64,000 bases of DNA from positions 87,569 to 151,568 of the forward strand of contig NZ_AUGY01000012.1 of assembly GCF_000422905.1 (NCBI RefSeq). The letters run 5' to 3'. Within the stretch, counting starts at the first letter, position 1. Every line of letters starts with the position of its first letter. Shown piece by piece: positions 3 to 19,550 of the stretch. Origin of the DNA: Paenibacillus alginolyticus DSM 5050 = NBRC 15375 (GTDB taxonomy: Bacteria > Bacillota > Bacilli > Paenibacillales > NBRC-103111). The translations under genes were made by a program, and so were the position numbers. The notes under the pieces are model-generated. The model was not told where the DNA came from. It was given only the letters and a program-made list of their open reading frames with translations, and searched no databases.

Positions 3-3000
3 CGATGGGTAAAGCGCGGCGCAAAAGGCATCGCGCTGATCGAGGATCGGGGCAGTCAGTTGGGGCTGCGTCATGTCTTCGATGTGTCGGACACGCAGAG
101 CCGAAGCCGACAGCCCTTTCCCCTATGGCGCATGGAGGAGCCGGATACGGAGGCCGTCATCGAAACGCTGGAAAATGCGTTTGGCAGTGAACCGGGGCCG
201 GGGATGGAACTGGTTGAAGTGTTGTTGACCGCTGCCCGAAACGCGGTGGAGGATCACAGCGCCGATTACGTGCGGATGCTGGTAGCCGAGCGCGACAACA
301 GCTTACTGGAAGAACTGGATGAGCCGCATGTGGAACTGTTGTTCAGAGAAGCCGCTCAATACGCGGTCGCCTTTATGGCGCTGACACGCTGCGGATTGGA
401 ACCCTCCCATTACATCAGTGTTGACGATCTTTCCGGCGTCGGTTATTTCAATACACTCCCTGCACTGTCACATTTGGGCGCGGCGATCAGCGACGTGGCT
501 GAAACGATGCTGCGCGAGATTGAATCCACCGTTCGGGCGATGCACCGCGACGAGCAGCGAAAAAAAGGGCGTCAGGCGAGCCGTACCGTTGCAAGGCCAG
601 AATCCTTGCCGCACAATGAAGCTAAAACACGCGAAAGGATGATGGAGCATGGAACTGACCTACACGCCGAGCGGGGATTACCTGCTGCCCGACCTGACGC
701 TGACCGAACCGATGAGCATCGGGAAATATGGGATGTTGCGCAAGACGTTTCTCAAGGAGGAGCGGAAGGGAACCTACGCTCACCTGATGCTGTCGGAGCA
801 ACTGACCCGGCATCTGGCGGACATCGACCGGACAGCGCGGGAGCAGATCGACCTGACGATGCAGGAACTGATCCGGCAGCATCCGGCCCCGGACAAGGCG
901 ACCGACCCGATGGGCTGGACGAGTCACATGAACAGCCTGAAACAACAGGCCGAGGAACTGATTCTCACGGAACTGATCTATCACTAAAATGGTACGACCG
1001 GGAAACGGAGGACAGAAGTCTTCCGTTTTTTCATGACCAAGCGATCATCAACGATATGCTTCGCGCCGCGCCGCTTTCCGAGAGCAAGGCGGCTATCGAA
1101 GCCTTTTTCGACGTGCATAAGGAAGATCGGGAACGAACGCTGTATATACGCAGTCTGTTCCCTCCGGGAATGACGGAGTTAACACTAGATGATGACATAA
1201 AGGTCGGTTTTGAGCCGTACCGCAACGTACTGCATCTTTGGACGGGATCGACAGAGCATCGGACGGCGCAGAGCTTTTACGATTGGTCGGTTATTGCCGG
1301 ACATTTTTCCAGCATGATTCTCCTTAACGAGTTTGATCCTGCTCATAAATCGGTGCCTTCTATTCAGCAGCAGACATTATGGATGAAACAAGCGGAGGAC
1401 GAAAAAGCCTCCGCTTTTTCACTTCCTCAAGCGGCCATCGACGCTGTTCTGCAAGGTGGAAGTGGTTTTGAGAACGGAAAGCTTCGCATCGCGCTATTTT
1501 TTCAACAGTCGTTATCGACGCAGGAGAACGCTGATTTTCTGAAACGGGAATATGGCACTGGCGGACGCCTCCCTGCCCTGATCGGCACCGATATTCATGA
1601 AAATCACGATAGTAAGGGAATTACGCTGACACGCGGTTCCATTATGAACCCGGATGTTCGGGTCGTGCTGCCGTGGATCAAGGTGCAAAAGCGCATTGGC
1701 GAGCTGCTGGCAGCGGGCCGCTATCTGAACCGCCAGGAAGAAGAACGGTTGCCTGCCTATGCCGAGCAGCAGGAGGAGCAGCGCAGGCAGCGCGCGGCGG
1801 AAAAGACGGAACACAATCTGCCGCTATCGGAATTGCAGCCGGATGAATCACAGCAAATGCCCAACCGGGCTCGGGCGCGCTATGGGTATACGGAGGGCAG
1901 CAAAGTCTTTATCGGTGCGGACGAGTACGAAATTGCGCAGCTGGAGTCGCGAAAGGTTGTGCTGCAGGACGTTCAATTTCCGTTATTCATGCAGGAAATG
2001 AATCGTCGGGATTTCGAGCGCATGCTGCGCGAGGACCCGCTGAACGATCATCTGATTTCCGGCCAGCAGGAATCGGATTCGGAACACGAGGAAAGGGATA
2101 CGGAACTGGTGGACGAACCGGAGCAAGCGGTACAACCGGCACAACCGGCACATGATGAGGGGGACAGGATATCTCCCGTTGCTCCTTCCGCTGCCACGCC
2201 CGAGATCGAGATCCGGCGTGAATCGACTCCGGTTAGCAACTACCGGATCATGGACAACGAACTGGGACATGGCGGCGCAAAAACCAAGTACAAATGGAAC
2301 GTGGAAGCGATCCGGCTGCTGGGGCAACTGGAGAAGGATAACCGTCAGGCGGCTGCGGACGAGCAGGCCGTGCTTGCCCGCTATGTGGGCTGGGGCGGGA
2401 TTCCCCAAGCATTTGATGATGGGAATTCGCAATGGGAAACCGAATATGCGGAGCTGCGAGATTTGCTGGACCCGGAGGAGTATGCATCCGCCCGCGCCTC
2501 CACGCTGAATGCCCATTATACATCTCCGACCGTCATCAAGGCGATGTACGAATGCCTGGAGAGGATGGGCTTTCGCAGCGGTAATATTTTGGAGCCGTCT
2601 TGCGGCATCGGCAACTTTTTCGGTCTATTGCCGGAGTCATTTCAGGACGCTCGGCTGTTTGGCGTGGAGTTGGACAGCATCACCGGGCGCATCGCGCGGC
2701 AGCTTTACCCGCAAGTATCGATTGCTGTCAGCGGCTACGAGCAGACCAGCTTGCCGGACAGCTTTTTTGACCTCGCGATCGGTAACGTCCCGTTCGGCAG
2801 CTACGGCGTGGCCGACAAAAAATACGACAAGCACAAGTTTCTGATTCACGACTATTTTTTTGCGAAGACGCTGGATAAGGTTCGTCCAGGCGGAATTGTC
2901 GCCTTCATTACGTCGAAAGGGACGATGGACAAACAAAACCCAACCGTCCGTAAATACATCGCGGAAAGGGCCGTGCTGCTCGGCGCGGTGCGTCTGCCTA

Positions 3001-6000
3001 ACAATGCGTTCCTGGCGAATGCCGGAACCGAAGTGACCGCCGACATTTTGTTTTTGCAAAAACGGGACCGCATGGTGGCTGTCAGCGAGCAAACCGAGGA
3101 ATGGCTTTCGCTCGGCGTTACGGCAGAGGATGTGCCGGTGAATAGCTACTTTGCAGCCCGCCCCGAAATGGTGCTTGGTACGATGGCCTACGATGACCGG
3201 ATGTACGGCAATCAACAGGAAACGACCTGCCGGCCCTACCCGGAAGCTCCTTTGGACGAGCTGTTGCGTGAGGCACTGGCGAACATCCATGCGGAGTGGG
3301 TCGAGTTGGAACGGGAGGAACAGCCGGAGGAGGAAGAGGTCTCCCTGCCTGCCGACCCGTCCGTTCGTAATTTCAGCTTTGCGCTGGTCGAGGGACGCAT
3401 CTATTTTCGGGAAAACAGCCGGATGCGGCCGGTTGAAACATCAGCAACTGCGGCGGGTCGTATCAAGGGCATGATTCAGCTTCGGGACACGGTGCGCGAA
3501 CTGATCGAATACCAGACCGAGGATTACAGCAACGAAGCGATAAGGGAGCAGCAGCGCAAGCTGGATACGCAATATGAACGGTTCACAGCGCAATACGACC
3601 TGATTAACAGTCGCGCCAATAGCCTTGCCTTTTCGGATGACAGCTCGTACTTCCTTCTCTGTTCGTTGGAAGTCATAGATGAGGAAGGACGGTTGCTGCG
3701 TAAGGCGGATATGTTCACGAAGCGTACCATTCGGCAACGAGCCAATATCAAACAGGTGGATACGGCTTCGGAGGCGCTGGCGGTTTCCATCGGTACGAAA
3801 GCTCGCGTCGATCTGCCGTATATGGCAGAACTGACCGGACTCACGCAGGAACAGCTTGTGCAGGAGCTTCGCGGCGTGATCTTCCCGAATCCTGAAAATC
3901 TGGACGAAGAAGGACAACCGAACTACGAAACAGCGGATGCGTATTTATCGGGCAATGTGCGTGAAAAGCTGCGCGCTGCCAAACAGTTTGCGGCCTATGA
4001 CACCGAGCGGTACGCTGAAAATGTTAGAGCGCTGGAAGCCGTGCAGCCGAAGGACTTGGACGCTTCCGAGATTGATGTGCGACTGGGCGCAACCTGGCTG
4101 CCGCCGGAAGTCATTCGGGCATTCATTTTCGAACTGGTGGATACGCCGTATATGTACCAAACCTCCATCAATGTGATGTATTCTGGCTACACAGCAGCCT
4201 GGAACGTCAAAGGCAAAAGCGATGATCGCAGTAACAATATTAAGGCTAATGTCACCTACGGTACGAATCGCATCAATGCGTACAAAATTCTCGAAGACAC
4301 GCTGAATCTGCGGGATGTAAGAATTTTCGATACGGCCGTTGAGAACGGTGTGGAAAAGCGGGTGCTGAACAAGCAGGAAACGGCTATCGCACAGCAAAAG
4401 CAGGAAGCCATGAAGGAAGCGTTTCGAGACTGGATATGGCAAGATCCGCAGCGCCGGGAGCAGCTCACGCGACTGTACAATGATCGGTTCAATTCCATCC
4501 GTCCGCGCGAATATGATGGAAGTCATATCCGCTTCACAGGGATGAATCCGGAAATCCGGTTGCGGCAGCATCAGGTCAATGCGGTTGCCCGCACGCTCTA
4601 CGGCGGCAATTCCCTGTTCGCCCATTGCGTCGGCGCGGGCAAAACCTTTGCAATGACCGCCGCGGCTATGGAAAGCAAGCATTTGGGCCTGTGTAACAAA
4701 AGCATGCTGGTTGTTCCTAATCATCTGACCGAGCAATGGGCGGCGGAATTTTTGATGCTCTATCCGTCCGCGAACGTGCTGGTCGCCACCAAGAAGGATT
4801 TTGAAACGAAGAACCGGAAGACGTTCTGCGCACGGATTGCCACCGGTGATTACGACGCGATCATCATCGGCCACTCGCAATTTGAAAAAATTCCGATCTC
4901 GGCGGAGCGCCAGCGGCAGCAGCTTTACGAACAAATATCCGAGATCACCAGCGGCATCCGCGAGCTAAAGGAAGCCAAGGGCGAGCGGTACGCCATCAAG
5001 CAGCTTGAGCGGACAAAGAAGACGCTGCAGGTCAAGCTGGAGAAGCTGAGCGACGCGAGCCGTAAGGATGATGTGGTCACCTTTGAGGAACTCGGCATCG
5101 ATCGATTGTTCGTCGACGAAGCAGACTCGTATAAAAATCTGTTTCTTTATACGAAAATGCGCAACGTCGCCGGGCTGTCGCAAACCGAAGCGCAAAAGTC
5201 ATCGGACATGTTTGCCAAGTGCCGCTATTTGGATGAATTGACCGAAGGACGGGGCATTATTTTTGCCACGGGTACGCCGATCTCCAACTCCATCACGGAG
5301 ATGTACACGATGCAACGCTACTTGCAATACGAGCGGCTCCGCGGGCAAGGCTTGCAGCACTTTGATTCGTGGGCTTCGACATTTGGCGAAACAGTTACCG
5401 CCATCGAATTGGCACCGGAAGGAACGGGCTATCGCGCGAAAACGCGGTTTGCCCGTTTTTATAATTTGCCGGAGCTAATGAACGTCTTTAAGGAAGTGGC
5501 GGACATTCAGACGGCGGATATGCTCCAGCTTCCGGTTCCCAAAGCCCACTTCCACAACGTCGCTGTGCCACCGAGCGATTTTCAGCGTGAGATGGTCGCG
5601 GATCTCGCCAGCCGCGCCGAACAGGTGCGAGCGAAGCGAGTAGAGCCGCATGAAGACAACATGCTCAAGATCACCAACGACGGACGCAAGCTGGCCCTCG
5701 ATCAGCGGCTTGCAAATGCCATGCTACCCGATGACGAAGGCAGTAAAGTAAGCGCCTGCGCGGATAACGTCTTTCGGCAATGGGCCGACAGTCGGGAGCA
5801 GCGGCTCGCGCAGCTGGTCTTTTGCGACCTTTCCATTCCAAAGCAGGACGGAACCTTTAATGTGTACGACGAGCTGCGGCGAAAACTGACGGAGAAAGGC
5901 ATTCCGGTTGAGGAGATCGCCTTCATTCACGACGCCAACACGGAGATAAAGAAAAAGGAACTGTTTGCGAAAGTACGAACGGGGCAGATTCGGGTGCTGC

Positions 6001-7046
6001 TTGGATCGACCTTCAAGATGGGCGCAGGGACGAACGTACAAACCAAACTAAGTGCGCTGCACGACCTCGATTGTCCATGGCGACCACGCGACCTGGAGCA
6101 GCGCAGCGGGCGGATTATTCGGCAAGGCAACCAGAACAGCGAGGTTCACATCTTCCGCTATGTCACAGAGAACACGTTTGACGCTTACCTTTATCAAACG
6201 CTGGAAAACAAGCAGCGGTTTATCTCGCAGATCATGACCAGCAAGTCGCCGGTTCGGTCTGCCGAGGACATTGATGAGACGGCTTTGTCCTATGCCGAAG
6301 TTAAAGCGCTTGCGACTGGAAATCCGTACATCAAGGAAAAAATGGATCTCGACATCCAGGTATCGAAGCTCAAGCTGCTCAAGGCGAATCATTTAAGCCA
6401 GCGTTATGCGCTGGAGGACCGGCTACTCAAAATGCTGCCGCAGCAAATCAAGTCTACGGAGGAACGCATTGCCGGGTATGAGCAGGACGTGGCTTTGTTC
6501 ATACGCGCCCAAGTGTCGGAGAAGGGTAGCACTGATGAGACCCGTTTTCCCGGCATGACGATCAAGGATTATTCTTACTCGGAACGCGCTGCTGCGGGCG
6601 CAGCTTTGTTGGACGCCTGCAAGGGTATGACCTCGCCCGATCCGCAGGAGATGGGCAGCTATCTCGGTTTTTCCATATGGCTTTCATTTGACAGCTTCAC
6701 GAAGGAGTACAAGGCGACACTACGCGGCGCATTGGGCCATACGGTTACGCTTGGGCCGGATACAGGTGGCAATATCATGCGAATAAATAATACATTGTCG
6801 GATTTGCCGAATAAGCTTGTCTATTACCGTGACCAACTCGCAACACTCATGAAACAAATGGTGACGGCGAAGGAGCAGATCGAAGCTCCGTTCAAGCAAG
6901 AGCAGGAGCTGCAAACCAAATCTGCTCGGCTTGCAGAATTGAATGCGCTGCTTAACATGGACAAACGGGAAAACGAGGCCGTGGACAGCGTGTCGGATGA
7001 AGAACCTGAGCTGCCGGAGCGAAAGGCTGTCAATCATGAACGCTAA
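3..7046 (+). CDS. Giant conjugative-element protein: ArdC-like N-terminus, N6-methylase-like and SNF2-type helicase domains (5' partial)
   Basis: The frame is open from the first bases and already reads the ArdC-like motif GAKGIALI and then VFDVSDT (nt 18-95), so the true start lies upstream of the window; the TTG at 60 is not it. Order of parts: ArdC-like end; a Gly/Pro/Asp-rich linker (about 640-985); conserved segments around SAFSLPQ and GSIMNPD (1410-1660); an adenine-methylase-like domain with LEPSCGIGNFF (near 2590) and NVPFG in place of NPPY (near 2784); and an SF2/SNF2 helicase with GAGKT (near 4633), VDEAD (near 5113), ATGTPISNS (near 5263) and QRSGRIIRQG (near 6100). This architecture is typical of Firmicutes ICEs, where one giant protein of about 2,300-3,000 residues heads the transfer region. 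A role in DNA processing or anti-restriction during transfer is inferred. It overlaps the next small gene by 11 bases. Confidence 0.93.
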   Translation, partial: RWVKRGAKGIALIEDRGSQLGLRHVFDVSDTQSRSRQPFPLWRMEEPDTEAVIETLENAFGSEPGPGMELVEVLLTAARNAVEDHSADYVRMLVAERDNSLLEELDEPHVELLFREAAQYAVAFMALTRCGLEPSHYISVDDLSGVGYFNTLPALSHLGAAISDVAETMLREIESTVRAMHRDEQRKKGRQASRTVARPESLPHNEAKTRERMMEHGTDLHAERGLPAARPDADRTDEHREIWDVAQDVSQGGAEGNLRSPDAVGATDPASGGHRPDSAGADRPDDAGTDPAASGPGQGDRPDGLDESHEQPETTGRGTDSHGTDLSLKWYDRETEDRSLPFFHDQAIINDMLRAAPLSESKAAIEAFFDVHKEDRERTLYIRSLFPPGMTELTLDDDIKVGFEPYRNVLHLWTGSTEHRTAQSFYDWSVIAGHFSSMILLNEFDPAHKSVPSIQQQTLWMKQAEDEKASAFSLPQAAIDAVLQGGSGFENGKLRIALFFQQSLSTQENADFLKREYGTGGRLPALIGTDIHENHDSKGITLTRGSIMNPDVRVVLPWIKVQKRIGELLAAGRYLNRQEEERLPAYAEQQEEQRRQRAAEKTEHNLPLSELQPDESQQMPNRARARYGYTEGSKVFIGADEYEIAQLESRKVVLQDVQFPLFMQEMNRRDFERMLREDPLNDHLISGQQESDSEHEERDTELVDEPEQAVQPAQPAHDEGDRISPVAPSAATPEIEIRRESTPVSNYRIMDNELGHGGAKTKYKWNVEAIRLLGQLEKDNRQAAADEQAVLARYVGWGGIPQAFDDGNSQWETEYAELRDLLDPEEYASARASTLNAHYTSPTVIKAMYECLERMGFRSGNILEPSCGIGNFFGLLPESFQDARLFGVELDSITGRIARQLYPQVSIAVSGYEQTSLPDSFFDLAIGNVPFGSYGVADKKYDKHKFLIHDYFFAKTLDKVRPGGIVAFITSKGTMDKQNPTVRKYIAERAVLLGAVRLPNNAFLANAGTEVTADILFLQKRDRMVAVSEQTEEWLSLGVTAEDVPVNSYFAARPEMVLGTMAYDDRMYGNQQETTCRPYPEAPLDELLREALANIHAEWVELEREEQPEEEEVSLPADPSVRNFSFALVEGRIYFRENSRMRPVETSATAAGRIKGMIQLRDTVRELIEYQTEDYSNEAIREQQRKLDTQYERFTAQYDLINSRANSLAFSDDSSYFLLCSLEVIDEEGRLLRKADMFTKRTIRQRANIKQVDTASEALAVSIGTKARVDLPYMAELTGLTQEQLVQELRGVIFPNPENLDEEGQPNYETADAYLSGNVREKLRAAKQFAAYDTERYAENVRALEAVQPKDLDASEIDVRLGATWLPPEVIRAFIFELVDTPYMYQTSINVMYSGYTAAWNVKGKSDDRSNNIKANVTYGTNRINAYKILEDTLNLRDVRIFDTAVENGVEKRVLNKQETAIAQQKQEAMKEAFRDWIWQDPQRREQLTRLYNDRFNSIRPREYDGSHIRFTGMNPEIRLRQHQVNAVARTLYGGNSLFAHCVGAGKTFAMTAAAMESKHLGLCNKSMLVVPNHLTEQWAAEFLMLYPSANVLVATKKDFETKNRKTFCARIATGDYDAIIIGHSQFEKIPISAERQRQQLYEQISEITSGIRELKEAKGERYAIKQLERTKKTLQVKLEKLSDASRKDDVVTFEELGIDRLFVDEADSYKNLFLYTKMRNVAGLSQTEAQKSSDMFAKCRYLDELTEGRGIIFATGTPISNSITEMYTMQRYLQYERLRGQGLQHFDSWASTFGETVTAIELAPEGTGYRAKTRFARFYNLPELMNVFKEVADIQTADMLQLPVPKAHFHNVAVPPSDFQREMVADLASRAEQVRAKRVEPHEDNMLKITNDGRKLALDQRLANAMLPDDEGSKVSACADNVFRQWADSREQRLAQLVFCDLSIPKQDGTFNVYDELRRKLTEKGIPVEEIAFIHDANTEIKKKELFAKVRTGQIRVLLGSTFKMGAGTNVQTKLSALHDLDCPWRPRDLEQRSGRIIRQGNQNSEVHIFRYVTENTFDAYLYQTLENKQRFISQIMTSKSPVRSAEDIDETALSYAEVKALATGNPYIKEKMDLDIQVSKLKLLKANHLSQRYALEDRLLKMLPQQIKSTEERIAGYEQDVALFIRAQVSEKGSTDETRFPGMTIKDYSYSERAAAGAALLDACKGMTSPDPQEMGSYLGFSIWLSFDSFTKEYKATLRGALGHTVTLGPDTGGNIMRINNTLSDLPNKLVYYRDQLATLMKQMVTAKEQIEAPFKQEQELQTKSARLAELNALLNMDKRENEAVDSVSDEEPELPERKAVNHER
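649..987 (+). CDS. tnpV: TnpV-family transposon protein, nested out of frame inside the giant gene
   Basis: The 112-residue product has the TnpV family layout: N-terminal YLLPDL, then IGKYGMLRKTFLKE, HLADIDRTARE, an MGWTSHMNSLKQQAEE segment, and an ELIYH end at the usual C-terminus. TnpV proteins occur on Tn4451/Tn5397-type elements and their role is unresolved. The ATG at 649 has AAAGGA at 634-639, 9 bases upstream. The gene lies wholly within the giant CDS in another frame; the host protein's disordered Asp/Gly/Arg/Pro-rich linker is exactly the shadow of this ORF. Both frames stay open for 339 bases. I am confident of the family match, less so that it is translated. Confidence 0.72.
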   Translation: MELTYTPSGDYLLPDLTLTEPMSIGKYGMLRKTFLKEERKGTYAHLMLSEQLTRHLADIDRTAREQIDLTMQELIRQHPAPDKATDPMGWTSHMNSLKQQAEELILTELIYH

Positions 7047-7381: not shown

Positions 7382-7515
7382 TAGACAGGGAAACGCTGTA
7401 TAAACGCTGTATTCACGCGTTTTCCTGTTATTTGTTGAGGTAATCTATACGACAATGACGTCTGTTGCTCATGATGCGCACACAGGCTTTTTATTTTTTC
7501 GAAAGGAGTGAGGCT

Positions 7516-8454
7516 ATGAGCTACGTCAACAAAGAACAAATCGAACGTGCAAAGCAATTGGACCTGCTCACTTACCTGCAATGCTTCGAGCCTTACGAAC
7601 TTGTACGGTGCTCGCGCAATGTCTATTCAACTCGAACTCACGACAGCCTTAAAATCTCTAACGGCAAATGGTTCTGGTGGTCGCGAGGGATTGGCGGCCG
7701 CTCGGCGCTGGATTATCTCATTAAGGTACGTGGCCTATCGTTTCCCGATGCGGTATTGCAAATTGACGATAATTCACCCGTCTATATATCTTCGGCTGCG
7801 CCAATCGTTTCTTCAATTGCTCGGCTGGAGCTTCCCGAACCGTATGAGACTTCAAATCGTGTCATTGCTTATCTTTGCAAGCGCGGCATTTCCCGCGACG
7901 TAATCGACTTTTGTCTCGACTCAGGACGACTGTACGAAAGCAGAATGTACCATAACGCGGTCTTTGTGGGATTCGATTTGACAGGCGCTCCGCGTTATGC
8001 GGCGATTCGCGGGACAACTAAAGCTCGCTACATGGGTGAAGCGCCAGGAAGCGATAAACGGTATTCGTTTGCTATACCAGCCGATGACTACGGCTCCGAG
8101 TTGCATTTGTTTGAAAGCGCAATTGACCTATTATCGTACTGCACCCTTGCTGCAATCTCCGGGAAGGACTGGCGACAATCGCATCAATTGTCGTTGGCCG
8201 GGATATATAGCCCTAAAGAAAAAAAGGATGGAGGCATTGCACCGGCTGCACTCACCAACTATTTGCAAAGCTATCCGGAAGTGGAGCGCATGGTGCTTCA
8301 TTTGGACAACGACGAACCTGGCCGTTCTGCGACAGCAGCGATTCAGAAATTACTCAGCCAAACTTACGAGATTTCAGATGAACCGCCAATCAGGAAAGAC
8401 GTTAACGACGACCTGAGGATTTATCGTAAACAGTGCGAGGAGCCAACTCGTTAG
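7516..8454 (+). CDS. DUF3991 and Toprim domain protein of the conjugative element
   Basis: 312 residues starting at the ATG with AAAGGAG (7502-7508) upstream. The N-terminus (VNKEQIERAKQLDLLTYLQ, then TRTHDSLKISNGKWFWWS and GGRSALDYLI) is the conserved DUF3991 region found in many Firmicutes ICEs. The C-terminal half carries a Toprim-like pattern: ESAIDLLSY (acidic residue, about 200) and HLDNDEPG (DxD-like, about 275). Toprim folds act in primases and topoisomerases, so a DNA-processing role in transfer or replication is likely but not shown. It precedes the mobC-relaxase block, as usual in this family. Confidence 0.85.
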   Translation: MSYVNKEQIERAKQLDLLTYLQCFEPYELVRCSRNVYSTRTHDSLKISNGKWFWWSRGIGGRSALDYLIKVRGLSFPDAVLQIDDNSPVYISSAAPIVSSIARLELPEPYETSNRVIAYLCKRGISRDVIDFCLDSGRLYESRMYHNAVFVGFDLTGAPRYAAIRGTTKARYMGEAPGSDKRYSFAIPADDYGSELHLFESAIDLLSYCTLAAISGKDWRQSHQLSLAGIYSPKEKKDGGIAPAALTNYLQSYPEVERMVLHLDNDEPGRSATAAIQKLLSQTYEISDEPPIRKDVNDDLRIYRKQCEEPTR

Positions 8455-8885: not shown

Positions 8886-8994
8886 CACGCTGTTTTATCA
8901 AGAATATAGGTTCCAACAAAGATCGGTATTTTTTAGAACGCCAGAAACTATTTAGCGTTTCATTCGGCTATTTCCTTTGAAGAGGGAAGTGAAC

Positions 8995-9360
8995 ATGATG
9001 AGAAGACGAGCGATTCGCATTCAGGTATGGGTGAACAACGATGAAAACACAAGACTCCAAGCGAGCGCGAAAAAATCGGGACTTTCACAGGAGGGTTATA
9101 TTCGATCTCTCATTAATGGCTATGTTCCGAAGGCGATGCCGCCAAAAGACTATTTCACGATGATGCGTGAACTGCACGCTATCGGCAATAACCTTAACCA
9201 ATTGGCCGCGAAGGCGCATGTGACCGGACATCTGGATCGTGGAGCTTTTCAGCAGGAGGCTGATCACTTGCGCCGCGCTGTCCAGCAGATTCAACAGGCC
9301 GTGACAGCACCGGAACCGAGAACCGTACCACAAGGAAATCCTAACGTACATCCGCCGTAA
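8995..9360 (+). CDS. mobC: MobC-family relaxosome protein
   Basis: 121 residues. It opens with a ribbon-helix-helix-like segment (RRAIRIQVWVNNDEN, then SGLSQEGYIRSLI) and continues with the MobC hallmark MRELHAIGNNLNQLAAKAH. MobC proteins bind oriT and help the relaxase open the DNA. I chose the ATG at 8995 because GAGGGAAG (8982-8989) is correctly spaced; a second ATG follows immediately. The relaxase gene starts 14 bases downstream, so the two are co-expressed. Confidence 0.88.
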   Translation: MMRRRAIRIQVWVNNDENTRLQASAKKSGLSQEGYIRSLINGYVPKAMPPKDYFTMMRELHAIGNNLNQLAAKAHVTGHLDRGAFQQEADHLRRAVQQIQQAVTAPEPRTVPQGNPNVHPP

Positions 9361-9374
9361 AGGGGACAGCACAT

Positions 9375-10766
9375 ATGGCGACAACCGCAATATGGGACGT
9401 TACCGACCGCCTCAAGCGTGTGTTGGATTACGCCACCAATCCCGATAAGACCGATCAAGCGCGTGTAGCGCATGATGATTTACAGCAGGTGCTCGCTTAT
9501 ACCAGCGCGGATGCCAAAACGGAAAAACAGCTTTACGTCAGCGGGATCAACTGCGATCCGCTGACCGCCTACGAGCAAATGCAGCGAACCAAACGACAAT
9601 TTCAAAAGACCGATGGCATTGTGGCTTTTCATGGGTATCAGGCGTTTGCACCGGGCGAAACGACGCCGGAAATGGCACATGCCGTTGGCGTCAAGCTGGC
9701 GCGGGAGCTATGGGGGGAGCGCTTTGAAGTCGTTGTATCGACCCATTTGGACAAGGAGCACTTGCACAATCATTTTGTACTGAATGCGGTGTCGTTCCTG
9801 GACGGTAAACGCTATTACGATAACAAAGCCTCTTACGCGCTGATGCGGCAAACCTCCGATCGACTTTGCCGGGAGCATGCCTTATCGGTCATCGAGCAGC
9901 CGGAACCGGGTAAGGCCAAGCATTACGGCGAGTGGCGAGCGGAACAGGAAAGCAAGCCGACTTGGCGCGGCTTGATTCGCGAGGATATCGACGCCGCTAT
10001 CGCCACTGCTATGACGATGACGCAATTCTTCGCGATCCTTCAGAAGCAGGGCTATGAAATGAAGTCGAACGTCAAGCATTTAGCGATACGCCCGCCGGGC
10101 AAAGAGCGGTTTGTTCGATTGCGCAGTCTTGGCGACGCATACACGGAGCATGCGATAAAAGAGCGTATTCTGCAAAACCAGTTACCGCAGCGTCAGCCAC
10201 CGGTGCCGTTGCCGCGGCGCAGGCGAGCCGTCATCGTTCGCGGCACCCTGCACATCGGACGTAGATTTAGCGGCCTGCAAGCCTTGTATATGCGTTACTT
10301 ATTCAAGATGGGGCTTCTGCCCCATTCCCGCGCGTCCCGTAAACGGACGTCTTTTTTATTGCGCGAAGACTTGCGACATTTGACGGCGATCACGGAGCAA
10401 ACCAAGCTGCTATGCCGTCATCGTATTTCCAGTACGGATCAATTGACGGGTTATCTTGATGGGTTGCAGGCAGAGTTGAAACAAGGATACAGCTTCCGCA
10501 AAATGCTGTACAACCGACTTCGCCGCTGTCAACTTCCCGAGCAAATCGAATCGTACAAGTCGCAAATTGCTGAGCTTTCCCGTCAGCTCGCGAAGCTCCG
10601 AAAGGAGGTGAGGCTTTGTACTGGCATTCTTGCCCGATCCAGCGATATAGCAAACAAGCTGCAACGTAACGAGGAAGACCAATCGACACGAAGGGAGGCC
10701 AATGTCCATGAGCAGCGGAACCGAGGCGGCCGATCAGGTCGTCAGCATGAGTCTTCGTGGCATTGA
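9375..10766 (+). CDS. MOBP-type relaxase (mobilisation nuclease, VirD2-like)
   Basis: 463 residues. The metal-binding triad motif HLDKEHLHNHF is at residues 124-134; the catalytic Tyr is probably Y19 or Y42 in the N-terminal part. The N-terminal third is the relaxase domain (PF03432 type); the basic, Arg-rich C-terminal part (after about 275) probably binds DNA or partners. The enzyme would nick oriT and stay covalently bound to the transferred strand. Its 3' end overlaps the PcfB-like gene by about 59 bases in another frame. Confidence 0.93.
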   Translation: MATTAIWDVTDRLKRVLDYATNPDKTDQARVAHDDLQQVLAYTSADAKTEKQLYVSGINCDPLTAYEQMQRTKRQFQKTDGIVAFHGYQAFAPGETTPEMAHAVGVKLARELWGERFEVVVSTHLDKEHLHNHFVLNAVSFLDGKRYYDNKASYALMRQTSDRLCREHALSVIEQPEPGKAKHYGEWRAEQESKPTWRGLIREDIDAAIATAMTMTQFFAILQKQGYEMKSNVKHLAIRPPGKERFVRLRSLGDAYTEHAIKERILQNQLPQRQPPVPLPRRRRAVIVRGTLHIGRRFSGLQALYMRYLFKMGLLPHSRASRKRTSFLLREDLRHLTAITEQTKLLCRHRISSTDQLTGYLDGLQAELKQGYSFRKMLYNRLRRCQLPEQIESYKSQIAELSRQLAKLRKEVRLCTGILARSSDIANKLQRNEEDQSTRREANVHEQRNRGGRSGRQHESSWH

Positions 10767-11667
10767 GGTCATGGCGAAAATTTCCGGTGAAGGCGCGAAG
10801 CATCTGGCCGTTTATTTGTTCGCCGCCCTGCAAGGGCAAAAACGAACAAGAGGCCGCATTCGTCTGGAAAGCTTGCTGCGCAGCGGCAAGGAACTGAAGG
10901 TGTTTGCAGTACGAAATGAAGACTTGCCGACTTTTTGCAAAGAAGCGAAGCGGTATGGTGTCCTCTATTGTGCGCTGCGTGACAAGAAAAATGTGGACGG
11001 GCTTTGCGACGTCATGGTGCGGGCCGAGGATGCGTCCAAGATCAACCGAATCGTTGAACGCTTCAAGCTGGCGACCGTAGATACGGCCAGCATCAAGCAG
11101 GAGATTGTGAAGTCCCGCAGCGGGAAGCAGTCGGACGAGCGTAAAGGAGCGGCGCAAGAACTGGAGCAAGTCTTGGCAGCGCCCGAAGGCGGGACCAGCG
11201 AGCCTCCGGCATCAAACGAGGGGGCAGTGAGCGAAGATTTTTTGGACGATCTGTTGGGAAAGCCCGAGCCGGCGGCGGAGGTTCAGCCGGTAAACGAGCA
11301 GCAGGGAACCGATCATCCGGCGGCCGAGGAGTGGGAGGTCGAGCGAACGGAGCCGGAGCGTCCGCTTCCCCTCCTGCCGACAGAGGAGGAGAGGACAATG
11401 GAACCATCCTTTCCGTCCGCGCCTACCTCCGAGCGCAGCGCGGCATACGAAAAGGTTACGATTGACCCTGAAAAGCCGAAGGAAAAAGTGTCCGTCCGCC
11501 AATTGCTGCGTGAAATTCGGGAGGTAAACCGGGCGGCAGAGACCAGACGGCGGCAGCAGGTGCAGGAACCATCGTTGCCTAAGCGCAGAGATCGCGGGAA
11601 GTCGGCGTCCGGCAGTAAAGCGTCCGTTCCGATAACCGGGGGTCGAAAGCGAGGGAAATCGAAATGA
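10708..11667 (+). CDS. PcfB family (DUF3801) conjugation accessory protein
   Basis: About 320 residues. The conserved N-terminal domain (about 1-135, with GAKHLAVYLFAAL, RLESLLRSGKELKVF and KRYGVLYCAL) is PcfB/DUF3801-like; the rest is a Glu/Pro-rich, probably disordered tail ending in basic residues. PcfB of pCF10 helps dock relaxase-DNA to the coupling protein. GGGAGG at 10693-10698 fits the ATG at 10708 (9 bases) better than the in-frame ATG at 10702. Its stop overlaps the next ATG by 4 bases. Confidence 0.82.
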   Translation: MSSGTEAADQVVSMSLRGIEVMAKISGEGAKHLAVYLFAALQGQKRTRGRIRLESLLRSGKELKVFAVRNEDLPTFCKEAKRYGVLYCALRDKKNVDGLCDVMVRAEDASKINRIVERFKLATVDTASIKQEIVKSRSGKQSDERKGAAQELEQVLAAPEGGTSEPPASNEGAVSEDFLDDLLGKPEPAAEVQPVNEQQGTDHPAAEEWEVERTEPERPLPLLPTEEERTMEPSFPSAPTSERSAAYEKVTIDPEKPKEKVSVRQLLREIREVNRAAETRRRQQVQEPSLPKRRDRGKSASGSKASVPITGGRKRGKSK

Positions 11668-12530
11668 GCGAACTGGACGAGTTATTCCAGCCCCAAGTCA
11701 CGACGACCTCCGGTCAGCGTGAGCAGCCGTTCGACAAAGAAGAATGGGCGCAAAAAAAGCAAGAACTGCGGCAGTGGACGTATGAGACGATTGACACTGC
11801 CACAGCCGCCATTGCTCAAAACGGCGAACAATTTCAGCATTATCTGGACGTACAAAGCCGTTTTGATCTCTACAGCGTCGCGAATGCGCTGCTTATTCTC
11901 GCACAGCGCCCGGATGCCACTCGCATTGCTGATTTTGATAGTTGGAAAGAACAAGGCGTCTATATCCGTCGCAAGGAAACCGGCTTCTACATCTTGGAGC
12001 CAGGCGAGGAATACAAGCGGGAAGATGGGAGTACCGCAATCAGCTACAACCCCAAGAAGATGTTCGATGTTGCGCAAACAACCGCACCGAAAAAGGAACC
12101 GCCGATCTACCCGGATGACCGCACGCGCATTAAGGCGTTGATGGATCGGTCACCTGCTCCGATTACGATTGGAGATGCCTTGCCTGCGGAAGTTCATACG
12201 CTTTATCAGCCGGATACGCGAAACATCGTGATACGTCGCGGACTGGGGGCCGGTGACATTTTTCGGGCGCTCGCACAGGAGCTGGCGCATGCGGAGATTG
12301 ATCGCGGCCATAACAACTACAGCCGCTCACATTACAATTTCCAAGCTTACTGCGCTGCGTATATGCTTTGCAAAAAGTTCGGCATCGAGACGGCTTCTTT
12401 CCGCTTCGGCCGGGTTCATGAACGGCTTAAGGAGTTGGAGCCGCAGCAAATTCGCGCCGAGCTGACGGTGATGAAGGATGCGGTACATGACATTTCCCGT
12501 CGTATGCACCGTATGCTGGCCCAGCAGTGA
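11664..12530 (+). CDS. ArdC-like protein with degenerate peptidase-like C-terminus
   Basis: 288 residues, starting with ATGA overlap to the previous gene. The first half matches the ArdC N-terminal ssDNA-binding domain (QSRFDLYSVANALLILAQRP, about 64-83; DSWKEQGVYIRRKETGFYIL). The C-terminal half has ALAQELAHAEIDRG (about 201-214), reminiscent of the zinc-peptidase region of ArdC but without a clear HExxH. ArdC proteins protect incoming DNA. Same operon as relaxase and coupling protein. Confidence 0.72.
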   Translation: MSELDELFQPQVTTTSGQREQPFDKEEWAQKKQELRQWTYETIDTATAAIAQNGEQFQHYLDVQSRFDLYSVANALLILAQRPDATRIADFDSWKEQGVYIRRKETGFYILEPGEEYKREDGSTAISYNPKKMFDVAQTTAPKKEPPIYPDDRTRIKALMDRSPAPITIGDALPAEVHTLYQPDTRNIVIRRGLGAGDIFRALAQELAHAEIDRGHNNYSRSHYNFQAYCAAYMLCKKFGIETASFRFGRVHERLKELEPQQIRAELTVMKDAVHDISRRMHRMLAQQ

Positions 12531-12615: not shown

Positions 12616-12807
12616 ATGAAAGAGGAAGAACGTATCCTGAGAATGGATCATTACGAGCATGGCATTGTCATCAACGCCTTGAATGCGCTCCGCAACGACT
12701 TGATCGGCCAGCAGCGGCCGACCGATCCTGTTGACGATTTACTGCTCAAAGCGATTGACGCTCCCTATCAAAAGGTAAAACGCCGGAGTCATCATGCGGC
12801 GCGCTGA
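12616..12807 (+). CDS. Small conserved ICE protein, unknown function
   Basis: 63 residues behind GGGAGGAG (12602-12609). The core HGIVINALNALRNDLIGQ and DPVDDLLLKAIDAP look like a short helical domain ending in a basic tail. It overlaps the start of the coupling-protein gene by 14 bases. No family with known function recognised. Confidence 0.6.
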   Translation: MKEEERILRMDHYEHGIVINALNALRNDLIGQQRPTDPVDDLLLKAIDAPYQKVKRRSHHAAR

Positions 12808-14563
12808 AACCGCAAGGAGTAATCTTTTACTCTTTGCGGTTTTTTTTATTCCGGTCGTGTGGGCGGCGCTGCTTGCCGCCCCCGCTTTGTCAAAGGGATT
12901 ACCGGCACTTCTGCTGTATCTCAGCGAGGCGATTAACCATCCCTTCCAGATTCAATGGGTCGAGGATACGCCACGAAGCTTGTTGCTGTTCACGCTCACT
13001 TATGGGATTTCGGTCGGCATCTACTTGGCGTCGCCGCGCAACTATCGGCGGCGCGAAGAACACGGCAGCGCACGATGGGGCAAGGCCAGACGCATCAATG
13101 CCAAGTACCACTACAAGCAACCGGAACAAAACAAAATTCTGACGCAGCAGGTACGCATCGGCTTGGATGGCCGCAAGCATCGCCGGAACCTGAATGTTCT
13201 TGTCGTCGGCGGTTCCGGTTCCGGCAAAACACGGTTTTACGCCAAGCCGAACGTCATGCAGGCGCATACGTCCTTTGTCGTGCTCGATCCTAAGGGCGAA
13301 ATTTTGCGCGATACCGGGCATCTGCTCAAGTCCGAAGGCTATGTCATCAAGGTGCTGGACCTCATCAATCCGCACCGTTCGCATGGCTACAATCCATTCG
13401 CCTATTTGCAAGACGACAAGGATGTTCTCAAGCTGGTCACCAATCTGATCCGCAATACGACACCAAAGGGCAGCAATACCAACGATCCCTTTTGGGAGCG
13501 ATCCGAGACCGCTTTGCTGGAAGCGCTCGTGCTATACCTGCTATATGAAGCACCGCCCGAGGAGCAAAATTTCCCAATGGTCATGGAAATGATCGCGGCT
13601 GCGGAGGTGCGGGAGGAGGACGAAACGTACCAAAGCCCACTCGATGAACTGTTCGAGCGGCTGGCCATGCGCGACCCGGAACACCTTGCCGTCAAGCAGT
13701 ACAACATTTTCAAGCTGGCGGCGGGCAAGACGGCCAAGTCCATTTTAATTGGCCTCGGCGTTCGGTTGGAGAAGTTCAACTTGCATACGATTGCGGGGAT
13801 GAGCATGGTCGACGAAATGGAATTGCCCGTTATGGGGGAGAAGAAGACGGCGTTGTTTGCCGTCATTCCCGATAACGACAGCAGCTTCAATTTTATTGTA
13901 GGCATGCTGTACACACAGCTTTTTCAATGCCTCATGTATGAAGCGGACTATCAGCATGGCGGACGTCTCCCGATTCATGTTCACTTTGTCATGGACGAGT
14001 TCGCCAATGTGGCGCTCCCCGACGAATTTGACAAGTTACTCTCGACGATGCGCAGCCGGGAAATTTCCGTGTCGATCATTTTACAAAATTTAGCGCAGCT
14101 CAAGGCGCTGTACAAGGATTCGTGGGAATCCATTGTGGGCAACTGCGATGAGTTTTTGTATTTGGGCGGTAACGAACAGTCCACCCACAAATACGTCTCG
14201 GAGCTGCTGGGCAAGGAAACGATAGACACCAATACCTACGGCCAGAGCAAGGGGCGAAACGGTAACTATTCGATCAATTACCAGCAGTCAGGTCGTGAAT
14301 TACTCACGCCTGATGAAGTGAGGTTGCTGGATAATCGCTATGCTCTGCTCTTTATCCGCGGCGAACGTCCAGTCCAGGACGACAAATATGATTTGTTCAG
14401 GCATCCCCATGTCTCGCTGACGACAGATGGCAACGGTCTTCCCTACCAACATGGCGGAACGGAGCACGCTTTGGATTGGCAATCCCTGCTCCTTCATGAA
14501 AATGGGGATTACGAGCTGCTGTCGGAGGAAGAAATGGAGTCGCTATTTTTAGGAAGGGAATGA
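12794..14563 (+). CDS. virD4: Type IV coupling protein, VirD4/TraG family
   Basis: 589 residues. Two N-terminal membrane segments (about 10-30 and 62-80) precede the RecA-like ATPase: Walker A GGSGSGKT at 139-146, the family motif DPKGEILRDTG after it, and Walker B-like HFVMDEFANV near 396-405. The family links relaxase-DNA to the type IV secretion channel at the inner membrane. The stop codon overlaps the next ATG (ATGA). Complete length for the Firmicutes VirD4 group. Confidence 0.93.
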   Translation: MRRAETARSNLLLFAVFFIPVVWAALLAAPALSKGLPALLLYLSEAINHPFQIQWVEDTPRSLLLFTLTYGISVGIYLASPRNYRRREEHGSARWGKARRINAKYHYKQPEQNKILTQQVRIGLDGRKHRRNLNVLVVGGSGSGKTRFYAKPNVMQAHTSFVVLDPKGEILRDTGHLLKSEGYVIKVLDLINPHRSHGYNPFAYLQDDKDVLKLVTNLIRNTTPKGSNTNDPFWERSETALLEALVLYLLYEAPPEEQNFPMVMEMIAAAEVREEDETYQSPLDELFERLAMRDPEHLAVKQYNIFKLAAGKTAKSILIGLGVRLEKFNLHTIAGMSMVDEMELPVMGEKKTALFAVIPDNDSSFNFIVGMLYTQLFQCLMYEADYQHGGRLPIHVHFVMDEFANVALPDEFDKLLSTMRSREISVSIILQNLAQLKALYKDSWESIVGNCDEFLYLGGNEQSTHKYVSELLGKETIDTNTYGQSKGRNGNYSINYQQSGRELLTPDEVRLLDNRYALLFIRGERPVQDDKYDLFRHPHVSLTTDGNGLPYQHGGTEHALDWQSLLLHENGDYELLSEEEMESLFLGRE

Positions 14564-16861: not shown

Positions 16862-17227
16862 GTGGAAGTGAAAATCAACCGGGAAATCCGGGATTATACG
16901 GAAAGCTTGTTCTTCGGACTGTCCTTGCGGCAGTCTTTTTTTTCTGTTCTGGCGGTCGCAGCGGCAATTGGACTGTATTTCGGGCTGCGCAGTCATTTCG
17001 GACTGGAAACGCTCAGTTGGATGTGCATATTGGGGGCAGCTCCCTGCGCCGCGCTCGGATTTATCCGCTATCACGGTATGACGGCGGAGCAACTATTGTG
17101 GGCGTATGTAAAGTCGGAGTTTCTGATGCCAAGACGGCTTGTGTTCCGGTCAACCAACATGTACTACGAAGCACTGAAAGGAAACCTGCACAAGCGTGAG
17201 CAAGAGAGGATGAAGCGTAATGATTAA
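16862..17227 (+). CDS. prgI: PrgI-family protein (VirB3-like)
   Basis: 121 residues from a GTG start with GGGAGGG upstream. The opening KINREIRDYTESLFFGLSLRQ followed by two membrane helices (about 25-40 and 50-66) is diagnostic of PrgI proteins, which sit next to VirB4 in Gram-positive systems. The stop overlaps the virB4 ATG by 8 bases, so the pair is translationally coupled. Confidence 0.87.
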   Translation: MEVKINREIRDYTESLFFGLSLRQSFFSVLAVAAAIGLYFGLRSHFGLETLSWMCILGAAPCAALGFIRYHGMTAEQLLWAYVKSEFLMPRRLVFRSTNMYYEALKGNLHKREQERMKRND

Positions 17228-19550
17228 GACACTCAGGCGCACCATGAAGCAGGACAAGGAACGGACAGTCATTCCCAAAAGCGTACAACAAGCGATCCCG
17301 ATCCGCGCCATCTGGCCGGACGGGATTTTTGCTGTCGGCAACAAATTCTCGAAGTCGTTCCGTTTCGCGGACATCAACTACGCTGTCGCATCGAGAGAGG
17401 ACAAGGAGACGATGTTCCTTTCCTACTCCGAATTGCTTAATTCGTTTGACAGCGGCGCGACGACGAAGATTACGATTCACAATCGGCGGCTTAATCAGGC
17501 AGACGTAGAACGTTCCATTCTTATTCCGCTCCAGCAAGACGGGCTGGATGTATATCGGCAGGAGTACAACGACATGTTGCTTGGTAAAGCGACGGATGGC
17601 AACACAAATGGGACGATTCAAGAGAAATACATCACCATCTCCGTGGTTAAAAAGAACGTGGATGAAGCTCGCCATTACTTCGCGCGGGTCGGCACGGAGT
17701 TGACGGCGCATTTCTCTCGTCTCGGCTCGAAATGTACCGAACTTGATGCGACTGACCGCCTGCGCATTCTGCATGACTTCTTCCGGATTGGCGAGGAAGC
17801 CGATTTTCGCTTCGACATGCAGGAGATGATGCGCAAGGGACACGATTTCAAAGATTACATTTGCCCTGACACCTTCGAGTTTGCCAAAGACCATTTTCGG
17901 ATGGGCGAATACTACGGTCGGGTCATCTTTCTGCGTGATTACGCCAGCTACATCAAGGACAGCATGGTAGCCGAACTGTGCGATTTGAACCGCAACTTGC
18001 TGCTGTCGCTCGATGTGATCCCGATTCCGACCGATGAAGCTGTTCGCGAAGTGGAGAATCGACTGCTCGGCGTGGAGACGAACATTACGAATTGGCAGCG
18101 ACGGCAAAACCGGAATAACAACTTTTCCGCCGTCGTTCCTTACGATATGGAGCAGCAGCGCAAGGAGAGCAAGGAATTTCTTAGTGACCTGACCACGCGC
18201 GACCAGCGGATGATGTTCGGGCTACTTACGATGGTGCATGTTGCGGACAGCAAAGAACAACTCGATAGCGATACGGAAACGTTGCTTACCACCGCTCGCA
18301 AGCATCTGTGCCAGTTTTCCACGCTCTCCTATCAGCAAATGGACGGTTTGAATACAGTGCTGCCGTATGGGCTGCGAAAGGTTCATGCTTTGCGGACACT
18401 AACGACTGAAAGTACGGCTGTCTTTATCCCTTTTCGAGCGCAGGAGATCATGCATCCAGACGGCATTTATTACGGGCAAAACGTCATCAGCAAAAATATG
18501 ATCATCGCCAATCGAAAGCAACTGCTGAATGGAAACAGTTTTATCCTTGGCGTATCCGGTTCCGGTAAAAGCTTCGCCGCGAAACGGGAAATCGTCAACC
18601 AGATATTGGCGAGCGATGACGACATTATCCTGATTGACCCGGAGCGGGAGTATTCCGCTCTGGTAAATGCGCTAGGTGGCGAGACGATTCACATATCTGC
18701 TACTTCGTCGAACCATATCAATGCGATGGATATGAACCGGGATTATGGCGACGGAGCCAATCCGATCATTCTAAAATCGGAATTCGTCCTGTCGTTGTGC
18801 GAGCAGTTGATCGGAGGACATCAGCTTGGAGCCAAGGAGAAGTCGCTCATCGATCGCTGTACCGCCGCTGTGTACCGCAAGTATTTGCGGAGCAACTATA
18901 AGGGGCAGCCGCCGACATTGCAGGATTTTCGCGCGGAGCTACTCAAGCAAGCAGAACAGGAGGCGCAGGACATCGCGCTGGCCATTGAATTATTTACTTC
19001 CGGCAGTCTGAATACGTTCGCCCAATCGACCAACGTCAACGTCCACAATCGGCTCATTTGCTACGATATTCTCGACTTGGGCAAGCAGCTTCTTCCCATC
19101 GGCATGCTGGTCGTACTCGACAACATCTTGAATCGGATTACGCAAAATCGCGCCAGAGGCAAGAATACGTTTATCTTTATTGATGAAATCTACCTTCTGT
19201 TCCAGCACGAATATAGCGCCAACTTTCTTTTCACGCTCTGGAAGCGTGTCCGAAAGTATGGCGCTTTTTGCACAGGGATTACGCAAAATGTGGACGATCT
19301 GCTGCAAAGCCATACAGCCCGCACCATGCTTGCAAACAGTGAATTCATCGTCATGCTAAATCAGGCCAGCACCGACCGGATGGAGCTCGCCGAGTTGCTC
19401 AACATTTCGGACCTGCAACTGTCCTACATTACGAATGTTGACGCCGGGAATGGTCTGATGAAGGTCGGCAGCTCCCTCGTACCGTTTACCGACAAGTTCC
19501 CGCGACACACGAAACTATACGGTCTGATGACGACGAAGCCTGGGGAATAG
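17220..19550 (+). CDS. virB4: VirB4/TrsE-family conjugation ATPase
   Basis: 776 residues. The N-terminal domain (about 1-400) is VirB4-like; the ATPase part has Walker A GVSGSGKS near 444-451, the following DPEREYSALV, and Walker B FIFIDEIY near 651-658. The C-terminal end (KLYGLMTTKPGE) is as in complete homologues. VirB4 powers the secretion channel. A terminator-like repeat follows, and the cell-wall hydrolase that normally comes next is found about 40 kb away. Confidence 0.94.
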   Translation: MIKTLRRTMKQDKERTVIPKSVQQAIPIRAIWPDGIFAVGNKFSKSFRFADINYAVASREDKETMFLSYSELLNSFDSGATTKITIHNRRLNQADVERSILIPLQQDGLDVYRQEYNDMLLGKATDGNTNGTIQEKYITISVVKKNVDEARHYFARVGTELTAHFSRLGSKCTELDATDRLRILHDFFRIGEEADFRFDMQEMMRKGHDFKDYICPDTFEFAKDHFRMGEYYGRVIFLRDYASYIKDSMVAELCDLNRNLLLSLDVIPIPTDEAVREVENRLLGVETNITNWQRRQNRNNNFSAVVPYDMEQQRKESKEFLSDLTTRDQRMMFGLLTMVHVADSKEQLDSDTETLLTTARKHLCQFSTLSYQQMDGLNTVLPYGLRKVHALRTLTTESTAVFIPFRAQEIMHPDGIYYGQNVISKNMIIANRKQLLNGNSFILGVSGSGKSFAAKREIVNQILASDDDIILIDPEREYSALVNALGGETIHISATSSNHINAMDMNRDYGDGANPIILKSEFVLSLCEQLIGGHQLGAKEKSLIDRCTAAVYRKYLRSNYKGQPPTLQDFRAELLKQAEQEAQDIALAIELFTSGSLNTFAQSTNVNVHNRLICYDILDLGKQLLPIGMLVVLDNILNRITQNRARGKNTFIFIDEIYLLFQHEYSANFLFTLWKRVRKYGAFCTGITQNVDDLLQSHTARTMLANSEFIVMLNQASTDRMELAELLNISDLQLSYITNVDAGNGLMKVGSSLVPFTDKFPRHTKLYGLMTTKPGE

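Follow-up and report, generated by a model that had tools for sequence, protein, structure and literature searches.

Three described systems come close to the arrangement reported here. The first is comS of Bacillus subtilis, which lies within srfA and, in the part of the source covered here (PMC12350097), resembles our case in being a small same-strand gene nested out of frame. That example, however, concerns one operon, whereas tnpV is a named family whose nesting has been kept in two phyla and whose outer frame has become a stretch linking domains. The second is TnpV of Tn4451/Tn6104-type elements, a mobile-element gene of the same named family, for which, in Tn4451-type elements, the portion of PMC3158075 covered records a postulated role in excision. 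There, TnpV is described as a gene by itself, on elements that encode a large serine recombinase, whereas the tnpV described below is nested in a methylase/helicase gene. The third is the class of polyvalent proteins of conjugative elements, in which ArdC-N occurs with a methylase-SWI2/SNF2 dyad (PMC5512222, covered in part). The outer protein at our locus shares this methylase-helicase layout, and relatives of it have an ArdC-N-like N-terminus; in the main text of that account, as far as covered, the words TnpV, linker and overprint each occur zero times. A literature search that took in partial texts of PMC3158075, PMC9815147, PMC5633684, PMC5512222 and PMC12350097, and whose reach mostly stopped short of subscription journals, returned no account of the overlap.

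The window (the whole stretch of 64,000 nucleotides that was analysed) opens within a giant methylase/SNF2-helicase gene on the forward strand (3 to 7046). Its 5' part lies outside: the ORF starts 238 bases 5' of the window and, in the extended locus (L003, 1763-9046), comprises 2427 codons. The encoded protein consists, in order, of an N-terminal domain (in-window part 3 to 593, its end set by homology with the close relative L121), a linker (648 to 986), an N6 DNA methylase domain (2478 to 3068; N6_Mtase, PF02384) and an SNF2-related helicase (4605 to 6128; SNF2-rel_dom, PF00176, and Helicase_C, PF00271). Methylase and helicase thus sit on one chain, as in the polyvalent proteins. Within the giant gene, and on the same strand, an ATG-initiated ORF at 649 to 987 occupies the +1 frame of the open frame 3-7046, such that the third position of each TnpV codon is the first position of a host codon. 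The alignment of its 112-residue product with PF14198 covers the complete profile (positions 1-111 of 111) and scores 109.4 bits, where the cut-off is 27, with E = 1.2e-31; an NCBIfam search with the same protein gave no match. A Shine-Dalgarno-like GAAAGGAT, read from the sequence, lies at 633 to 640 on the forward strand, with 8 bases between its end and the ATG at 649. The original prediction had described just such a full-length TnpV with its own ribosome binding site, out of frame in the giant gene, and had noted that the tnpV bases, read in the host frame, encode an Asp/Gly/Arg/Pro-rich linker. Both descriptions are accurate, and the linker flavour that it gave for relatives is present in them as well (for instance, GDRPDGEG). 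A chance ORF at 649-987 is ruled out by the PF14198 match and by the selection tests given below. An antisense open frame of 120 codons (622 to 984, reverse strand) also runs over tnpV, so that three frames are open on these bases; we take the antisense frame to be a by-product. A like arrangement recurs in the same genome, where a second giant gene on contig C159, divergent from the first, also has a TnpV embedded in it.

The neighbourhood of the giant gene is that of an integrative and conjugative element (ICE). Downstream, all on the forward strand, follow a DUF3991/Toprim protein (7465 to 8454), a MobC/NikA-like relaxosome protein (8977 to 9360), a relaxase (9375 to 10766; PF03432), a VirD4-like coupling protein of the CD1115 family (12794 to 14563; NF045973) and a VirB4-like ATPase of the CD1110 family (17220 to 19550; NF045971). 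PADLOC matches on the giant protein are confined to its methylase and helicase parts. A Pfam scan of the N-terminal domain gave no match in either the window copy or L121. We call the domain ArdC-N-like by way of its relatives: among eight N-terminal regions scanned, the homologous Listeria domain matches PF08401 (E = 6.3e-6, the only one above the cut-off), those of Streptococcus suis and Enterococcus faecalis match it weakly, and a profile of the domain connects Listeria with the giant-protein family of the window.

We consider it very probable that this is a conserved tnpV nested out of frame in a giant methylase/helicase gene, and that bases 649-987 are, by prediction, read twice. Ribosomes passing in the giant frame would translate these bases as a linker, likely disordered, and ribosomes starting at the internal ATG would likely make the 112-residue TnpV protein. 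The N-terminus would be kept joined to the methylase/helicase by stop avoidance only. TnpV itself may be a small protein that partners the DNA-processing machinery of the element and is translated from the message that also encodes the methylase/helicase.

PF14198 was found in 14 of 104 genomes of the family, 49 of 392 in the order sample and 28 of 398 in the phylum sample. From a further scan of named genomes, the best 80 of 548 relatives were used, ranging from Paenibacillus and Cohnella to Lachnospiraceae. The 179 profile matches reduce to 142 distinct sequences, 136 of which cover most of the profile. These 136 full-length TnpVs (199 loci) fall into 113 whose surrounding host frame is open over 433 codons or more, the property by which the embedded class is defined, three with host homology and a broken frame, and 20 scored as free. 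The last class includes L153, which was kept among the 19 free representatives of the stop test although it bears the host signature and has a stop immediately 3' of tnpV; in L135, L153 and L173, the breaks in the host frame lie outside the overlap. The third frame contains 6 to 19 stops in each of the 113 embedded copies, compared with none in the host frame, which is open by definition in this class, and the other out-of-frame phase is open in none.

A complementary survey started from the host, seeking the methylase region in the 398 phylum genomes, so that loci were not picked by TnpV. It returned 26 giant genes in 18 genomes, including the two in the window's own genome; one was cut by a contig end. 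Among the 25 with upstream sequence, 24 match the TnpV profile in the +1 frame, 23 of them strongly and one (G711) weakly (E = 3.7e-4), which bears out the expectation of a TnpV frame in homologous linkers; the survey profile was partly built from survey loci, and Pfam's independent model marks the same 24 places, with G416 and G711 below its cut-off. The one remaining gene of this survey, G533 (L115), has the N-terminal domain and no nested TnpV; just 5' of its ORF, there is a TnpV-like match that is very weak (E = 0.012). The analysis also took in 30 annotated regions of our choice out of larger sets, one of which comprised 2029 methylase-bearing plasmid records. Eight of the nine opened Bacillota plasmid regions with the methylase have a nested TnpV, namely those from Cohnella, Virgibacillus, S. 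suis, Listeria, Ruminococcus albus, Streptococcus agalactiae, Monoglobus and E. faecalis. When the Pfam model was run on six plasmid TnpVs, five scored above the cut-off and that of S. agalactiae below it, at 19.9 bits. The ninth region, from Streptococcus sp. (L214), gave no TnpV profile match; its ORF starts no more than 29 codons before the methylase.

To what extent the host frame is held open can be judged from stop codons, with the expectation obtained by permuting each TnpV's synonymous codons. Among 21 divergent embedded copies, 0 host-frame stops were seen against 50.9 expected, a zero that follows in part from how the class is defined. With the three broken host copies added (1 stop, in L143, against 2.4 expected), the count becomes 1 against about 53. 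Free copies, by comparison, have 84 stops against 94.2 expected. In codon choice, T-ending codons before AA, AG or GA number 0 of 1033 in embedded copies, which is wholly by construction, compared with 86 of 218 in free copies, and T ends 1065 of the 3107 pyrimidine-ending codons elsewhere in embedded copies. The outer frame is kept open by selection.

Amino-acid selection was assessed by classing sites according to their effect in both frames, using 281 close pairs (nucleotide identity of at least 0.85). Pair sets were limited to 400 in the main test and 150 in the border test, the pairs share ancestry, and the intervals are bootstraps over codons. For the TnpV frame, dNN/dSN is 0.213 (95% interval 0.161-0.274) and dNS/dSS is 0.163; because a virtual +1 frame outside the overlap gives 0.61-0.82, the TnpV value of about 0.2 is to be read against that range and not against 1. 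TnpV amino acids are under purifying selection, and the expectation that this frame would not be evolving neutrally is borne out. The host frame in the overlap gives a dNN/dNS of 0.962 (0.706-1.367) in close pairs and 0.95-1.08 in the border test, compared with 0.11-0.12 just upstream and 0.11-0.23 downstream. Since constraint on the host is seen in the flanks, the method detects it where it exists, and it finds none in the overlap: the host residues there evolve as if neutral. In more distant pairs, the host dSN/dSS exceeds 1 (1.67, 1.03-3.10), and some ratios saturate. The dual coding that had been proposed is supported, but it is asymmetric. With TnpV residues selected, and host residues neutral in effect apart from the avoidance of stops, the linker amounts to an out-of-frame shadow of tnpV.

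One alternative is that coding is symmetric, with the linker's amino-acid sequence itself functional and selected. The linker is indeed strongly hydrophilic: its hydrophobicity in the embedded copies is 0.13, below the 0.23 found for the shadow in free copies, and compositional selection or a GC effect may lie behind this difference. A few linker columns are also invariant, although constraint on TnpV can yield that too. Against these features stand the ratios just given, since 0.95-1.08 in the overlap is much like the value of a virtual host frame in free TnpVs (1.07, from 10 pairs only) and far from the 0.11-0.23 of the flanks. We regard symmetric coding as improbable, and take the linker to be a shadow that is kept open and whose residues evolve as if neutral.

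The start of tnpV carries signals of its own. An ATG lies nearby in 110 of the 113 embedded copies. The anti-Shine-Dalgarno pairing energy has a median of -8.2 at TnpV starts, taken in this comparison as the best of nearby candidates, against -2.2 at 931 control in-frame ATGs. When host codons were resampled with the protein kept, now using the nearest ATG only, mean pairing was -7.5 compared with an expected -4.7; singly, 7 of 23 tests reached p <= 0.05, the nearest ATG pairs weakly in four, and the combined chi-square is 118 with 46 degrees of freedom. The 23 representatives here, and the 21 of the stop test, differ because identity was computed differently. These observations bear on a further possibility, namely that programmed frameshifting from the giant frame makes a fusion of the N-terminal domain with TnpV instead of a separate protein. 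Such a fusion would be compatible with the shared strand and the +1 phase, and the open TnpV frame extends at least 45 codons 5' of the ATG in 21 of 110 copies. In 30 of the 110, however, five or fewer codons are open there, in the window only two, and both the ATG and the Shine-Dalgarno sequence are conserved, which makes frameshifting very improbable next to internal initiation. Lastly, that TnpV is a functionless, decaying transposon remnant caught in the helicase gene hardly deserves credence: the family takes its name from a transposon protein, and TnpV occurs in mobile cargoes that have inserted into snf2 genes (PMC9815147, covered in part), but the nested gene is under purifying selection, keeps one phase and place across deep divergence, and is intact while the third frame is full of stops.

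Structure prediction agrees with an ordered TnpV and a disordered linker. The AF2 model of TnpV has four helices over residues 26-110 (mean pLDDT 85.8) and is helical wherever it is confident, and TnpV is accordingly predicted to be helical. For the host N-terminus, modelled in L121, residues 11-277 are mostly confident and residues 278-421 fall below a pLDDT of 50; the linker homologue (residues 296-407) lies inside the latter stretch, with a pLDDT of about 24-40, so the linker is predicted to be disordered. The host-frame shadow is rich in Gly, Ala, Arg, Asp, Glu and Ser, a composition that fits a disordered linker. A Foldseek search of the TnpV model against PDB gave no match at E <= 0.001, and the best PDB sequence match has an E-value of 0.02. 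For an excisionase fold (lambda Xis-like) in TnpV, solved structures searched by sequence and by fold yielded no convincing match. The PHROGs match of TnpV is a family of unknown function.

The nesting extends beyond Bacillota. With an Arthrobacter query, a TnpV-like gene was matched in 63 plasmid records. In all nine opened Actinomycetota regions with a TnpV match, eight of which were opened because TnpV matched, the helicase frame continues open across TnpV, again in the +1 phase. Together, these nine copies have 0 host-frame stops against 10.9 expected by permutation; singly, they are mostly not significant. The helicase frames begin 26 to 438 codons 5' of TnpV. Only in Paenarthrobacter aurescens does the annotated helicase CDS span TnpV; in the other eight, a gene listed separately covers TnpV, and the gene that follows is annotated to start after TnpV or, in Microbacterium, within its last bases. 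These annotated starts might suggest unfused tandem genes, which is ruled out by the helicase frame being open through TnpV in nine of nine. On five of these plasmids (L221-L223, L226 and L227), a similar short peptide (VEGQLSFD- or DGQLSFE-like) is encoded 5' of TnpV in the helicase frame. For four of these plasmids, annotation puts the start of the following gene beyond TnpV, which may be too late. The Bacillota N-terminal domain was sought in one Actinomycetota copy (L216), without a match. Of the opened regions from Salmonella, Hafnia, Pseudomonas putida, Roseibium, Burkholderia, Campylobacter and Rhodococcus, none gave a TnpV profile match, the Rhodococcus region (L215) having the methylase.

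In the cyanobacterium Acaryochloris (two records), tnpV is unfused and immediately precedes the SNF2 gene; the helicase frame has 8 stops in one record and 6 in the other. The methylase query had no match in the stretch from the second record (L224), where the neighbour is known from its annotation as an SNF2-related protein. Of the two outlying proteins given to Pfam, that of Acaryochloris passes (29.5 bits) and that of Arthrobacter (L216) does not (16.5). The unfused Acaryochloris pair looks like an earlier state, although the tree is unrooted. Together with the free-standing relatives of tnpV, it makes the linker look overprinted on tnpV, and we think it most likely that the linker is the shadow of an older gene. 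The helicase frame would then have been extended upstream through tnpV. In this respect, the claim that the linker is a frame-shifted image of tnpV fixed across a family holds for the image, which is conserved, and probably needs its direction reversed, tnpV likely being the older of the two. That tnpV is nested in the +1 phase in both Bacillota and Actinomycetota suggests that the nesting arose once, long ago, with two events also possible. The TnpV tree, which is unrooted and poorly resolved, needs several changes between embedded and free, and gives no decision between gain and loss or between one event and two.

On a bolder reading, to which we are evenly disposed, TnpV would be an obligate partner subunit of the conjugative methylase/SNF2 helicase, the two genes having become inseparable in Bacillota and Actinomycetota once the frame was extended through tnpV, and the linker sequence of a widespread giant-protein family would be dictated codon by codon by another protein. 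The nesting is deeply conserved, in a host gene that Listeria, Streptococcus and Enterococcus carry on plasmids and ICEs. It shows that a domain linker can arise from the out-of-frame reading of an existing gene, and it ties TnpV, a family of unproven function, to a conjugative methylase/helicase.

Protein databases contain annotated TnpV proteins that are close to the copy in the window, and the nesting had been offered as an explanation of orphan TnpV annotations. This accounts for some of them, such as those of Cohnella herbarum, Kocuria and Arthrobacter, which are nested; others are free-standing next to a recombinase or regulator. Annotation tables, which are incomplete by their own description, list the TnpV alone and no giant gene in Cohnella herbarum and Monoglobus, and the SNF2 protein alone in Virgibacillus. 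Free TnpVs lie near helix-turn-helix regulators, between ParB and relaxase, or after a recombinase. In L162, L181 and L203, the free TnpV genes are found at or just after small helix-turn-helix regulator genes; those of L162 and L181 group with embedded TnpVs in the tree and are possible escapes from the host gene. In L017 and L141 (Paenibacillus koleovorans in the case of L141), the TnpV frame is 68% identical to that of the window over residues 13-112, its N-terminus is altered and no host homology was detected, with three host-phase stops in L017; this TnpV is probably a decaying copy. Back in the window, a protein encoded at 11664-12530, which has no Pfam match, carries a motif like that of the N-terminal domain (LILAQRPDATRIADFDSWKEQG) and by eye resembles that part of the giant protein.
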